Source: Agapetus fuscipes
Taxonomy: Eukaryota > Arthropoda > Insecta > Trichoptera > Glossosomatidae
Assembly: GCA_951799405.1 (NCBI GenBank)
Contig: OX637362.1
Location: forward strand, 7,518,703 to 7,582,702
Direction: 5' to 3'
Length of the DNA stretch: 64,000 nucleotides
In this document: positions 3 through 14,442 of the stretch, piece by piece
How positions within the stretch are numbered: position 1 is the stretch's first letter
Layout of the letters: the number at the start of each line of letters is the position of its first letter
Program-made: the position numbers and the translations under genes
The notes under the pieces: model-generated
Database searches by the model: none
What the model was told of the DNA's origin: nothing
Seen by the model: the letters and a program-made list of their open reading frames with translations, nothing else

Positions 3-1244
3 AAGACCAGGACCACTGCGCTACATCCACAGTCTGATGGAATGGTGGAAAGGATGAACCGTACCGTGGGGAGGTACTTAGCCAAAGTAGTGTCCAGCCA
101 TCAGCGGGACTGGGACCGACATCTGCCTTTGTTCTTATTGGCTTACCGGTCGGCTGTTCAGGAAACGACGAAGAAGACTCCCAGCAGCATACTGTTTGGG
201 CGAGAAATGCGACTTCCTTGTGATCTCAAATTTGGCTGCAAACCAGGTGAAGACCTAGCCGGAGAAGACTATGTGACAGACCTTCGCAGGAGGCTGGATG
301 ACATCCATGATCAGGTCCGCATGAACATCGGGGAAGCCAGCGATCAAATGAAGGAGCGCTATGACACCAGAGCTGACAGCATGGGGTACAAAGCTGGTGA
401 CTGGGTGTGGCTTTTTGACCCCAAGAGGCGCCAAGGATACTGTCCGAAACTTCAGCGTTCCTGGGACGGGCCGTACGAGATCTTGGAGCGCATCAACGAT
501 GTGGTCTACCGCATAAAAAAGAGACCAAACGGAAAACCAAGGGTCGTGCACTACAATCGCCTCTCACCATACCTAGGCGATAATGATGACCAACCAGCCC
601 AAAAAGTACGACAGTGCGTCGCATCCGAAAGATCACCAGCCTTTGAGACGTTTTGGGAGAACGCGAAGGCAGGGCAGAAGTTTCGCCATGGAGTGACCAC
701 AGAAGTCCACAAGGACTTATTTGAGGTCACTAGGGACCACACACTGGCATGCAGTGTACCGGAAGATCTAGATATGTCTAGAGGAATTGCACGGGTCTTC
801 CGATACAAATTCGGAGAACCGCAACCCTCGAGCAGCCCGCAAGGAAGAGCTCTGAGACTACCGAAGGGGCGTCAACAAGCATACTGCCTGGTTGTCCCGG
901 ATTCCAGCAACCTGGAAGAGGACTACAAGGCATTGTGGGACGGCCTTGTTGAGCTGCGTGACTACATGTTGGAGGATCAGCAGGCGCGTCTGGCAATACC
1001 GAAGATGGGTGGCGGCCGCGCTAATCGAGACTGGCGGATAATCCGGAGTATGATTGAAGCAGTGTTCTCGGGAGTCGGCATCAGCGTCATGGTGTGCTGC
1101 GAGCAAGCGCAGCCGAGAGCCAGTGGGGAGAAATCCGTGGACTGCCACTTCTTCCTGACCACAGGGTGTCGACGTGGATCAGCATGCCCCTACCTACACA
1201 GAGTCAAGACTGTTCCGGGACGAAACAGTCTAGGTGGGGGGTAG
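3..1244 (+). CDS. Ty3/gypsy Pol C-terminus: integrase fused to macrodomain and CCCH zinc finger
   Basis: The frame is open from base 3; the 5' part lies outside the window. Residue numbers count from the Met at base 42. Just upstream and through residue 8 is the integrase core end (HPQSDGMVERMNRT), holding the third catalytic acid, Glu3. The core tail (LAYRSAVQETTKKTPS, FGREMRLP) and a chromatin/DNA-binding-like C-terminus (GDWVWLFDP ... PKLQRSWDGPYEI ... RVVHYNRLSPY, about 118-177) follow. Most gypsy proteins of this type stop near here. This one continues about 220 residues in frame: a macrodomain-like region at about 223-352 (HKDLFEV, VPEDLDMSRGIARVFRYKFG, AIPKMGGG, MIEAVF), resembling TARG1/OARD1 ADP-ribosyl-acylhydrolases, then a CCCH finger, C368-X7-C376-X5-C382-X3-H386. 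From memory of TARG1, its catalytic Lys and Asp positions look replaced here, so the domain may bind rather than hydrolyse. The frame has no breaks and ends at the purine tract beside the LTR. Integrase assignment is firm; macrodomain is likely; its role is unknown. Confidence 0.9.
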   Translation, partial: KTRTTALHPQSDGMVERMNRTVGRYLAKVVSSHQRDWDRHLPLFLLAYRSAVQETTKKTPSSILFGREMRLPCDLKFGCKPGEDLAGEDYVTDLRRRLDDIHDQVRMNIGEASDQMKERYDTRADSMGYKAGDWVWLFDPKRRQGYCPKLQRSWDGPYEILERINDVVYRIKKRPNGKPRVVHYNRLSPYLGDNDDQPAQKVRQCVASERSPAFETFWENAKAGQKFRHGVTTEVHKDLFEVTRDHTLACSVPEDLDMSRGIARVFRYKFGEPQPSSSPQGRALRLPKGRQQAYCLVVPDSSNLEEDYKALWDGLVELRDYMLEDQQARLAIPKMGGGRANRDWRIIRSMIEAVFSGVGISVMVCCEQAQPRASGEKSVDCHFFLTTGCRRGSACPYLHRVKTVPGRNSLGGG

Positions 1245-1332
1245 TGTTATGTAAATATAAATATTGAAATAAGTATGGGTAGTTATAGTGTTATGTAAAT
1301 ATAAATATTGAAATAAGTATGGATAGTTATAG
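1245..1332 (+). repeat. 44-bp tandem duplication at the LTR start
   Basis: 1245-1288 and 1289-1332 are two copies of the same 44 bp with a single difference (GGGTAG against GGATAG). The LTR edge is therefore present twice; either could be the functional end. Confidence 0.9.
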
Positions 1333-1553
1333 TTATAAGAATCCTCAAAAGTATTGGTAGGTAAGATCGATAATTATGTATAAGTGTAGAATTCTCTAGG
1401 CTAAGTAGGTATTTGTTATAATTATAGGAATACTGTATTGCATTGGTAGGTAGGATTTTGGTTGTGTCTAGGTAGTACGTGAAACATCGAGAAGTAATAA
1501 TTACTCTGGAACCGTCTGGCGACTTTAGTTCTGGATCATACTGCTCTGAAGAG

Positions 1554-1560
1554 TATAAAG
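1554..1560 (+). promoter_or_regulatory. LTR TATA box
   Basis: TATAAAG in GC-richer surroundings, about 310 bp into the LTR and about 110 bp before the first AATAAA. This is the expected spacing for U3/R. Confidence 0.55.
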
Positions 1561-1760
1561 GTGCGAATGGCCTGCAGAGCGGGCCAGTATCATAGAGACT
1601 TACAAACACATCGAAGTCATCTGATCAGTGAACCAAAACCAAGTGGAATAATCGAGAAAGTAGTGTGAAAATAAATTTTGTAACTGTGTAAAATAAATAA
1701 CTATTGAAGAAGACCTGTGTATTTTTAATTTGAAGACAATTGAACCCTAATTTCGTAACA

Positions 1761-2196
1761 GTATTATTTGAAAAATTAAAGATGATTTTTTCGCGGTCTA
1801 AAGCGAATTGATCCCACAACTTTCTGAGCCCAAAGCGTTAACCCCTAGACTCCGGACCGGTTTCTTGCTGGTCTCGTATTTCAATTTGTTTTTGCGTTCA
1901 AAAATACAATCATCCCTGTGTTCACGGGTAGATGGGACAAAATTATGGCAGCGTGCTATCTTTTGAGAATTTAAATTTTAATTTTGAAATGCAATCACTG
2001 TCTTATGGCCACTATCCCGTAGTGTTGGTTGTCGTGAGGCTGGTCACCGCCCGCAACAATCACCGAGCTCCCTTGTCATGATTAGTAATGCGCCGCCAGC
2101 TGATAGATAGAATACACGCCGAATGGAAAATCCTAATTTCAATCCGCGCCAACCAACTAACTAACTAAGTAGGTGGGAATTGGCTATCGGGCCACG
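1761..2196. other. Flank of the gypsy element
   Basis: No gene seen. On the minus strand, 1790-1865 faintly resembles a tRNA-like SINE head (a TAGGGGTTAACG A-box-like and a GTGGGATCAATTC B-box-like stretch), too degenerate to call. Confidence 0.4.
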
Positions 2197-12361: not shown

Positions 12362-14387
12362 TTTTTTTTTATTTTATTTATTTTATTTTAATAGGACAAC
12401 AAACAGCGTTACATAAGAAATATAATAGTAGCAATTACAAAAAAAACATGGCCAATTATATGTTGCCACGGATATCAAATTTAGGAAGTTGGAAATAATT
12501 ACAAGATGGTTATTACAAGTAACTAATTACAAGAAAAAAAAATAAAAAATACTGCTCTCAAAACAGAATATGATGTAAATTTAAAAATAAAGAAAATCAG
12601 TTCTCCCTGAGTGACGCACCCACCGCTTTGCGAAAGTGCGCCGTCTCTAAATGAAAAATATCAATGCTACTGAAACACTTGTTATAAGTTTCACACACCC
12701 GGTAAATTGGCGAGCTCTGAGCATAGTTAGTGCGACACACAGGGAGATGAAAGAGTTGGTCTACCGTGTGCCTGGTTCTGCGAGTTGGAATGTTGAGGGA
12801 TAACATACACAAAATATCAGGGTTATCAATTTTGTTGTGCAAAATGCCGTGGATTAACATCATGTCGCAAACAACACGCCTATCCTCTAGAGAGTCCAGC
12901 TTATGATAGTCAAGGGCTGACTTGTAATCAGGAAAAGATAAGTTAAACTTATAATTTATGTGTTTTATAAATCTTTTTTGTACTCTCTCGATACGTTTTA
13001 TATGCACCGCATAAGAGGGGGACCAAACAGGGGACATGTACTCAAGAAGTGAGCGAACCATTGTAGTGTAGAGAACTTTTAATACCGTAACTTTTTTGAA
13101 GGGTTTGCAAGTTCGCAAAATGAACCCGAGCACCCTGAATGATCTCTCCAAGACATTGTCAATATGATTCACGAAGGTGAGTTTGCTATCCATTATGACA
13201 CCCAGATCACGTACCCGGTCAACAGACTCGATAGGAAAATCGTTAATATAATAAATATGATTTAAGGGTGAAAGTTTACGTGAGAACGAGACCTTGTGAC
13301 ATTTGCTAACATTAATGGATAGTCTATTGGCAGCACAATATTCTGAAAGCCGATCGAGATCTAATTGAAGTCTTGCACAGTCAGATGAATCAGAGATTCT
13401 CAAAAAAATCTTCATATCGTCAGCAAATAGGAGATGCTCTGCATGAAGAAAACAGTCACCAATATCGTGGATATACAAAGTAAAGAAAAGGGGTCCCAAA
13501 TGCGATCCCTGGGGAACACCGGAAGGAATGGTGACAAAGTTTGATTTGTAGCCTCTTATTACCACTGCCTGACGACGATTACGGATATAGGATTCTATCC
13601 ATCTTAGAAGATCACCGTGGATTCCGAGCTTACTCAATTTGCTCAACAGAATGTTATGATTTACTCTGTCAAAAGCCTTGGCATAATCGGTGTAGATAAC
13701 GTCGGTCTGCAATCCACTGTGCATGTTAGAAAATACATAGTCAGTGAAAGGTAAGAGATTAGATAAAACAGATCTATTGCGAAGGAAACCGTGCTGTTGG
13801 TCGCTGAATGATGATTTGAGAGAACCATAAAGTTGGTCGTATATTACACGCTCGAAGAGTTTACTTATAGCAGACAAAATTGAAATCGGACGGTAGTTTT
13901 TGATCAAATTATTGGGACCAGATTTATAAATAGGAGACACTAGAGCCTCTTTCCATATGTCAGGGAAAATACCCTCTCTTAAGGAGCGTGAGAAGAGTAT
14001 GGAGAGCGGCTCCGCCACAACCTCAGCACATCTGGCAAGAAGCAGAGGCGGCACCCCATCACTACCAGCACCCTTCGTTACGTCAAGGTTGGAGAGATAT
14101 GTAGTTAAAATATTTCTGTCAGTAGAACAACAACCAAGGCCAGTCAGGTTAGGTTTTCCTGGCTCAGAAGAATGAACGGTGGAACTATGGGTGTCATGAT
14201 CAAACATAGAGAAAAAGTAATCGGAGAAAGCGATGGAGATTTCCTTGCCACCATTAACAGAATTTGTTCCATCAGTAGACATACACATGGGAATTGAATT
14301 ATTTTTGCGTCTGCTTTTAACAAAGCTCCAAAATGCTCTAGGGTTTTCTTGTATGTTAGTTTCAGCGGAAATAATGAAGTGAGAACT
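12362..14387 (-). mobile_element. 5'-truncated Jockey/CR1-like LINE
   Basis: About 2 kb, read right to left: ORF2 part, a 235-bp 3' UTR, and a poly-A-like end seen as T-rich DNA at 12361-12391. The insertion splits one SINE-B copy between GCATTT and AATATGAATCTC, so the LINE is younger than that SINE. The 5' end, including the endonuclease, was lost, as is usual in target-primed insertion. Confidence 0.85.
12597..14387 (-). CDS. Jockey/CR1-like LINE reverse transcriptase (N-truncated)
   Basis: Copies LINE RNA into DNA at the target site. The first Met is at 14288, but the frame is open upstream to the truncation point, including NPRAFWSFVKSRRKN, the linker usual between endonuclease and RT. 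So the natural start is lost. Motifs in order (from the 14288 Met): YRPISILS (fingers), TDYAKAFDRVNH with the first catalytic Asp, SGVPQGSHLGP, and LLFADDMKIF with the catalytic FADD pair; then LGVIMDSKLTF and a long C-terminal thumb/connection (YMSPVWSPSY, RVQKRFIKHI). No internal stop or frameshift in 597 codons, so the copy is fairly young, although it cannot move on its own without an endonuclease. RT identity is certain; the clade (Jockey against CR1) is my judgement from motif style. Confidence 0.92.
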   Translation of the reverse strand, partial: SSHFIISAETNIQENPRAFWSFVKSRRKNNSIPMCMSTDGTNSVNGGKEISIAFSDYFFSMFDHDTHSSTVHSSEPGKPNLTGLGCCSTDRNILTTYLSNLDVTKGAGSDGVPPLLLARCAEVVAEPLSILFSRSLREGIFPDIWKEALVSPIYKSGPNNLIKNYRPISILSAISKLFERVIYDQLYGSLKSSFSDQQHGFLRNRSVLSNLLPFTDYVFSNMHSGLQTDVIYTDYAKAFDRVNHNILLSKLSKLGIHGDLLRWIESYIRNRRQAVVIRGYKSNFVTIPSGVPQGSHLGPLFFTLYIHDIGDCFLHAEHLLFADDMKIFLRISDSSDCARLQLDLDRLSEYCAANRLSINVSKCHKVSFSRKLSPLNHIYYINDFPIESVDRVRDLGVIMDSKLTFVNHIDNVLERSFRVLGFILRTCKPFKKVTVLKVLYTTMVRSLLEYMSPVWSPSYAVHIKRIERVQKRFIKHINYKFNLSFPDYKSALDYHKLDSLEDRRVVCDMMLIHGILHNKIDNPDILCMLSLNIPTRRTRHTVDQLFHLPVCRTNYAQSSPIYRVCETYNKCFSSIDIFHLETAHFRKAVGASLREN

Positions 14388-14442
14388 AATATGAATCTCA
14401 AATATTACATATCTTTGCAGTTTAGATTAAGATTTAGATTTG
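14388..14442 (+). mobile_element. SINE-B, right part of the split copy
   Basis: AATATGAATCTCAAATATTACATATC then TTTGCAGTTTAGATTAAG continues the copy begun at 12229. Confidence 0.75.

Follow-up and report, generated by a model that had tools for sequence, protein, structure and literature searches.

A TARG1-type macrodomain and a CCCH zinc finger in the Pol protein of a Ty3/gypsy retrotransposon of Agapetus fuscipes

The chromodomain of gypsy elements is placed after the integrase and reads histone methylation. Retrotransposon polyproteins are known to carry accessory domains, and the chromodomain is named as well known in excerpts of one report (PMC6338049); the element described here resembles the chromodomain elements in carrying an accessory domain in an LTR-element polyprotein, and differs from them in that this domain is a TARG1 macrodomain with a CCCH zinc finger. 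Fish epsilon-like endogenous retroviruses are likewise retroelements with a macrodomain, extra macro-domain ORFs being mentioned in excerpts of PMC4977317 (citing Basta et al. 2009), and given these viruses the occurrence of a macrodomain in a retroelement is not without precedent. In those excerpts the macrodomain takes the form of additional ORFs, whereas here it is of the TARG1 type and is fused into a Ty3/gypsy Pol. No account of a TARG1 domain inside gypsy Pol was found among the best-ranked open-licence PMC matches.

Human TARG1 (OARD1, C6orf130; PDB 4j5q, 4j5r, 4j5s and 2eee) aligns across the whole macrodomain, with identities of 29% for the window copy and 38-46% for ten relatives that keep the catalytic Lys and Asp; it is a free-standing protein, whereas the element domain is fused to Pol. 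The DarG antitoxin macrodomain is the next solved family after TARG1 in a Foldseek comparison, and the phage TARG1-like protein LpeD matches the element in tblastn (E 2e-8); the DarG and phage TARG1-like proteins are bacterial or phage proteins that are more distant and have neither integrase nor CCCH finger. Additionally, 283 phage records match the window extension at E up to 1, and the phage proteins of PHROG 335 (phrog_335; L001, L002 and L004), which that entry names phosphatase, resemble TARG1/DarG macrodomains. LpeD, read by eye, keeps the Lys/Asp pair, and scans of viral_contigs with phage proteins or A2 as the query return three contigs with phage TARG1-like genes.

The stretch of DNA analysed here, termed the window, comprises 64,000 nucleotides (C30:7518703-7582702) of the 618-Mb host genome, and the features of the element are collected in Table 1. 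Positions 3-1244 form a single open frame of 413 codons that enters from the left edge of the window, and F217 in the linker is invariant in alignment A3. In a copy that reaches approximately 900 bases further upstream (L009), the matching stretch contains Integrase_H2C2 (1.7e-18) and rve (8.1e-16), and a profile matches Ty3-G Gag-Pol (7q5b) with an E value of 1.9e-8. The LTR pair of the window copy (3' LTR 1247-1760 compared with the 5' LTR in L037) is identical at 514 of 514 bases. A gag is present upstream (L037:1682-2899; Retrotrans_gag, 24.7 bits against a cut-off of 24.1), and in the window family its first domain, in the same interval, is SAP (PF02037, E 1.3e-8, above the cut-off). The LTR pair, the target-site duplication, the integrase type and gag identify the element as a Ty3/gypsy LTR retrotransposon. 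No env gene follows pol, the stop codon (1242-1244) directly adjoining the LTR start (1245), which rules out a retrovirus or errantivirus with env.

Table 1. Positions of the element features in the window
Feature	Position	Strand	Evidence or remark
Integrase end (gypsy), frame residues 1-190	3..572	+	Pfam PF22938 8.1e-13, PF24626 8.1e-8; upstream part outside the window
SH3/p58 C-terminal domain of integrase	about 396-572	+	Pfam
Linker joining integrase to macrodomain, residues 191-229	573..689	+	Mean identity 37% (66 family pairs)
TARG1-type macrodomain, residues 230-367	690..1103	+	Lys84 to Pro, Asp125 to Ala
CCCH zinc finger C-x7-C-x5-C-x3-H, residues 381-399	1143..1199	+	PF00642
G-rich tract GGTGGGGGG within the last codons, putative polypurine tract	1233..1241	+	Assigned by position only
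pol TAG stop codon, adjoins LTR	1242..1244	+	Sequence
44-bp unit in tandem, LTR start	1242..1333	+	Other copies: LTR lengths consistent with 1 to 4 units
3' LTR, TGTTATG...CGTAACA	1245..1760	+	LTR comparison
Target-site duplication GTAT	1761..1764	+	Second GTAT adjoins the 5' LTR in L037

Elsewhere in the window, a 12-bp tandem array CACGAGCACTAG of about 27 copies lies shortly 3' of the LTR (2193-2510), and a LINE-like open frame of 609 codons (RVT_1, 5.2e-30) is present on the minus strand at 12597-14426. Rfam at the gathering threshold and a tRNA scan give no matches in the window. A SAP start is also present in two Aromia gene models (P0023 and P0042), in which it is joined to an integrase of the same kind.

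The 218-residue extension finds 1,410 candidates in the host genome, and the best 150, which as the top-scoring copies are a biased sample of identity, are all 100% identical and free of stops; by hand count, 112 of the 150 sit in a frame of 1,422 residues. Over the final 1,239 bases of pol, 30 of these copies show 0-3 differences from the window; the extension has no nonsynonymous change among them, as follows from their choice by score. The LTR pairs are 99.8-100% identical and have matching 4-bp flanks in all eight copies examined (that of the window included), with target duplications of RTAY in seven and ATAG in one. The window family is thus a recently multiplied element. Additionally, LTR lengths (counted from 1247) mostly lie near 427, 471, 515 or 559 bases (27 of the 30 copies L007-L036 with an LTR end found). 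A single-copy artefact or assembly fusion is ruled out by the 150 scored copies, the relatives elsewhere and the contiguous open frame.

A comparison with the PDB reveals TARG1 entries as the only matches to this stretch of the frame below an E value of 0.001 (7.6e-11); the macrodomain alone matches TARG1 at 4.1e-11, and a profile matches it at 1.4e-40. TARG1 is the best fold match of both structure models, and the solved families rank in Foldseek as TARG1, DarG and then the alphavirus macrodomains. Among the solved macrodomains the window domain is therefore nearest to TARG1 by sequence and by fold, and that a TARG1-type macrodomain is fused to gypsy Pol is practically certain. The agreement of single-sequence match, profile match and fold rules out a chance match, and a viral-type macrodomain is rejected, as the domain resembles TARG1 more than the viral ones. 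The Pfam Macro model gives no match in the window copy and stays below its cut-off in ten relatives. The CCCH finger (PF00642) scores 21.6 bits in the 218-residue piece and 19.4 bits in the whole frame against a cut-off of 20.5, which P0033 alone reaches (20.5) among ten relatives. Its C-x7-C-x5-C-x3-H spacing is found in 23 of the 36 proteins with the extension motif, several rows being cut short or fused gene models, and P0041 contains the macrodomain and lacks the finger. The sequence-only reading of the window had proposed one frame running from an integrase end through a macrodomain and a CCCH finger to a stop, a purine tract and an LTR, with the macrodomain being of the TARG1 type and captured by a gypsy element; Pfam, PDB and sequence agree with the first proposal, finger included, and the PDB and fold matches to TARG1 with the second. 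The extension is also not confined to one copy, as it occurs in the 150 scored host copies and in relatives from other genomes.

With the integrase portion as the query, 44 proteins are retrieved among 114 candidates, many from Aromia moschata and the remainder from Exocentrus, Molorchus, Harmonia, Trichonephila, Stegodyphus and further contigs. The extension start motif is present in 36 of 45 proteins (the window and P0002 counted in), a number that comes from pattern matching to the GVT motif and takes in truncated rows and gene models; P0021, P0023 and P0027, which are among the 36, have little or no macrodomain, and P0038, which is outside them, has part of the domain. P0035, P0036 and P0039 (Trichonephila) end 4-5 residues past the HYDRLAPY motif with no extension, and as the three sources end alike, this would be a true stop and an ordinary gypsy C-terminus without the extension. 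The notion that the extension is itself the ordinary gypsy C-terminus is rejected on these three proteins. P0006 ends 7 residues past the same motif, yet groups with extension-bearing rows, and may represent a defective copy or have lost the extension. In the integrase tree, a branch with support 100/100 parts P0035, P0036 and P0039 from 12 rows (11 with the extension, and P0006). Because the tree splits off these extension-less proteins, the extension was probably gained in the lineage now found in beetles and the host of the window, with the polarity taken from a midpoint root. For the trees, 12 of the 36 extension-bearing proteins were chosen; P0007 stands for Aromia, and P0043 is omitted from the integrase tree (gap). 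Protein searches with the macrodomain alone (4 candidates) and with the extension (805 candidates) return P0002 only, and scans of viral_contigs and genome_contigs give no copy of the element or its integrase. One record of 5.3 kb (L006, NZ_CP087956.1), deposited as a plasmid of Wolbachia from the moth Corcyra cephalonica, contains a gypsy integrase with broken frames that is 48% identical to P0031; the tblastn match covers residues 3-129 of P0031, not the macrodomain, and the record may be a host retrotransposon circle or a contaminant.

With human TARG1 aligned, 30 of the 36 rows are readable at both Lys84 and Asp125, the latter of which we take to be the catalytic partner of the former. Both residues are kept in 27 of these 30 rows, many of which are Aromia near-copies; outside Aromia the pair is kept in P0003, P0004, P0005, P0025, P0031, P0032, P0033, P0041 and P0043. 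The pair is also present in the TARG1 exons of the host and in a second gypsy lineage of the same genome (family B, described below). It is lost in the window protein and its near-copy P0002 (Pro/Ala), in P0030 (Arg/Gly) and, as read by eye, in two further families of the host genome, family C (Arg/Ala) and family E (Pro/Ala), and in every case seen Lys and Asp are lost jointly. According to excerpts of PMC8501950, the K84A mutant of TARG1 fails to act. G121, G123 and Asp20 of TARG1 are retained in the window copy. Near the pocket, the rows that keep the pair have G41 replaced, as do all readable rows, and mostly have Ala in place of S35, a Ser being found at this position only in P0004, P0005, P0030 and P0037; therefore the choice of substrate may differ from that of TARG1.

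Families C, D (the window family) and E form one group in the larger macrodomain tree (98/94), with P0030 outside it, which suggests that the catalytic pair was lost once or twice, the deeper forks of the tree being weakly resolved. Within the C-terminal clade of this tree, which is itself weakly resolved inside, path lengths as drawn are 1.34 for P0030, 1.15 for the window, 1.13 for E and 0.80 for C where the pair is lost, and 0.24-0.63 in ten rows where it is kept. End branches in the smaller macrodomain tree are 2.82 for the window and 2.66 for P0030 against a median of 0.54, although that of human TARG1 is just as long (2.78), and the integrase end branches are ordinary (window 0.37, P0030 0.17, others 0.024-0.47). 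The macrodomain thus appears to evolve faster where the pair is lost, which is not the case for the integrase. Because 27 of 30 rows and the second gypsy lineage keep the pair, hydrolysis is the likely ancestral role, and the ancestral form can with fair assurance be taken as catalytic on this distribution. Hydrolysis is unneeded for the present spread of the most abundant family seen, as this family has lost the pair. Judging from the residues, the domain of the window family is more likely to bind ADP-ribose or to have a structural role than to be a hydrolase; that the domain is specifically a non-catalytic binder there may well be so, at slightly less than an even chance. The sequence-only reading had noted that the catalytic Lys and Asp seem changed, as the alignment with human TARG1 demonstrates (Pro and Ala), and its preference for binding over hydrolysis holds for the sub-lineage of the window and fails beyond it, where most readable rows and the second lineage keep the pair.

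Selection on the domain was assessed by dN/dS (Nei-Gojobori with bootstrap ranges), a comparison that the earlier reading had proposed. Between the window family D and family E, the value is 0.176 (0.093-0.285) for the macrodomain and 0.043 (0.000-0.096) for the integrase, which indicates that the non-catalytic domain is constrained, apparently less than its integrase, although the bootstrap ranges touch. The macrodomain values are 0.164 (0.000-0.340) for D-C and 0.195 (0.000-0.376) for E-C, and in family B the macrodomain value of 0.076 (0.000-0.158) is equal to those of its flanks (0.086 and 0.083); dS is near-saturated in the D-C, E-C and B comparisons, and 0 is the lower bound of their bootstrap ranges. 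Macrodomain values from within-family pairs that differ at few sites are 0.24-0.42, and the finger and tail give 0.43 between D and E. Selection has very probably kept the macrodomain. Synonymous divergence between D and E (L066) is 1.97 for the integrase, 0.97 for the macrodomain and 0.10 for the finger and tail; this contrast (window 1104-1241 compared with L066 and L075) points to recombination near the 3' end.

The search of the host genome with human TARG1 gives 993 candidates, of which 150 were scored. The top matches are three exon-sized, host TARG1-like sequences of 44-46% identity, and the element families rank after them; two host TARG1-like exons are seen in L078. The three host TARG1-like loci (L045-L047, L078-L080) are 92-96% identical around the large exon and are probably recent duplicates of the host gene. 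In family B (L048-L055, with L056 truncated; for example C21:11274489, C12:10913253 and C30:6583091), the TARG1 domain lies between RNase H and integrase and keeps both catalytic residues. In L053, RVT_1 (7.1e-41) and RT_RNaseH (1.9e-40) precede the domain, Integrase_H2C2 (6.4e-19) and rve (4.6e-11) follow it, and the domain alone matches TARG1 with an E value of 3.6e-20. The larger tree places the C-terminal domains in one clade (96/91) and those of B in another (100/100) on a long branch of 1.63. A single capture followed by recombination between gypsy lineages, rather than two captures from host TARG1, can be entertained with some reserve: a branch with a non-significant support of 65/79 has the B and C-terminal element domains together on one side, and the D-E recombination near the 3' end is visible, whereas the positions in Pol differ, the integrase of family B is only 34% identical to that of the window family (77% for family C), and the domain of B sits on its long separate branch.

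The best explanation overall, for which the case stands about even, is a captured eraser of ADP-ribose in Pol that serves as a binder or structural part in the window family. A gypsy lineage, with named hosts so far being beetles, would have captured a TARG1-type ADP-ribosylhydrolase, which together with the CCCH finger became fused to the integrase C-terminus, and in a distant gypsy lineage a TARG1 domain lies between RNase H and integrase. Because the domain belongs to Pol, it would be made and packaged beside reverse transcriptase, integrase and new cDNA. The ancestral job would most likely have been the local removal of ADP-ribose from integrase, particle proteins or the ends of cDNA or RNA, where it would have been put on by host transferases, such that removal would keep the integration complex functional; the CCCH finger would anchor the domain to the element RNA. 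In the three families of the C-terminal form seen in the host genome (C, D and E), the domain would most likely be an ADP-ribose binder or a structural part of the integrase because the catalytic pair is lost there. That the domain acts beside integrase and cDNA against host ADP-ribosylation is put forward tentatively from its place in the protein. According to excerpts of PMC8501950 and PMC11920425, the targets of TARG1 include acidic residues, thymidine in single-stranded DNA, nucleic-acid ends and RNA, and this chemistry would suit the removal of ADP-ribose from a complex of cDNA and integrase. In Drosophila parp-1 mutants, mobile elements mostly rise, those of the gypsy superfamily included, as stated in excerpts of PMC7712786; many of these changes miss significance, and according to the authors the effect is possibly indirect.

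A different role is that of a reader, in which the domain would bind chromatin-borne ADP-ribose or poly-ADP-ribose and help to select or retain the integration site, as the chromodomain of gypsy elements would. The position directly after the integrase C-terminus, the retention of G121, G123 and Asp20 and the low D-E dN/dS despite loss of the pair in C, D and E are consistent with this role; the hydrolytic pair kept in most readable rows argues against it, as does family B, in which the domain precedes the integrase and misfits a C-terminal tether. The RTAY and ATAG duplications reflect a local site preference and say nothing about chromatin, and the reader role is considered unlikely. Counter-defence against cytoplasmic host ADP-ribosylation, as thought for the alphavirus and coronavirus macrodomains, would agree with the shared fold, the TARG1 catalytic pair in the relatives, the macro-domain ORFs of fish endogenous retroviruses (excerpts of PMC4977317) and the structural rank of the alphavirus macrodomains after TARG1 and DarG. 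However, the closest match is TARG1 and not a viral macrodomain, a Pol-fused domain is scarce and tethered, and no such insect defence against retroelements was found in the accessible portions of the open-licence PMC literature. This role is rather improbable. A functionless passenger captured by chance through template switching is very improbable and is largely refuted by dN/dS: the loss of both catalytic residues in the most abundant family seen, the missing finger of P0041, the early end of P0006 and the faster macrodomain evolution in the lineage of the window would suit it, but the frame is open, the D-E and B values are low, elements of the window's host and of several beetle species share the domain, and two gypsy lineages carry it at two positions.

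In the fullest form of the eraser explanation, which is speculative and unlikely to hold in every part, hosts would restrict LTR retroelements through ADP-ribosylation of their integrase, cDNA ends or RNA, two gypsy lineages would have responded independently and built the TARG1 eraser of the host itself into Pol at two positions, and one of these would later have become an ADP-ribose-reading pseudoenzyme that is now spreading in the genome of the window. A TARG1-type hydrolase in Pol would mark ADP-ribosylation of the reverse-transcription and integration complex as contested by hosts and retroelements, a contest that is otherwise hard to see. The domain occurs in two lineages at two positions, and a catalytic pair that is likely to be ancestral has been lost while selection continued; together these provide a natural comparison of an eraser with its non-catalytic descendant, which is testable with the isolated domains.
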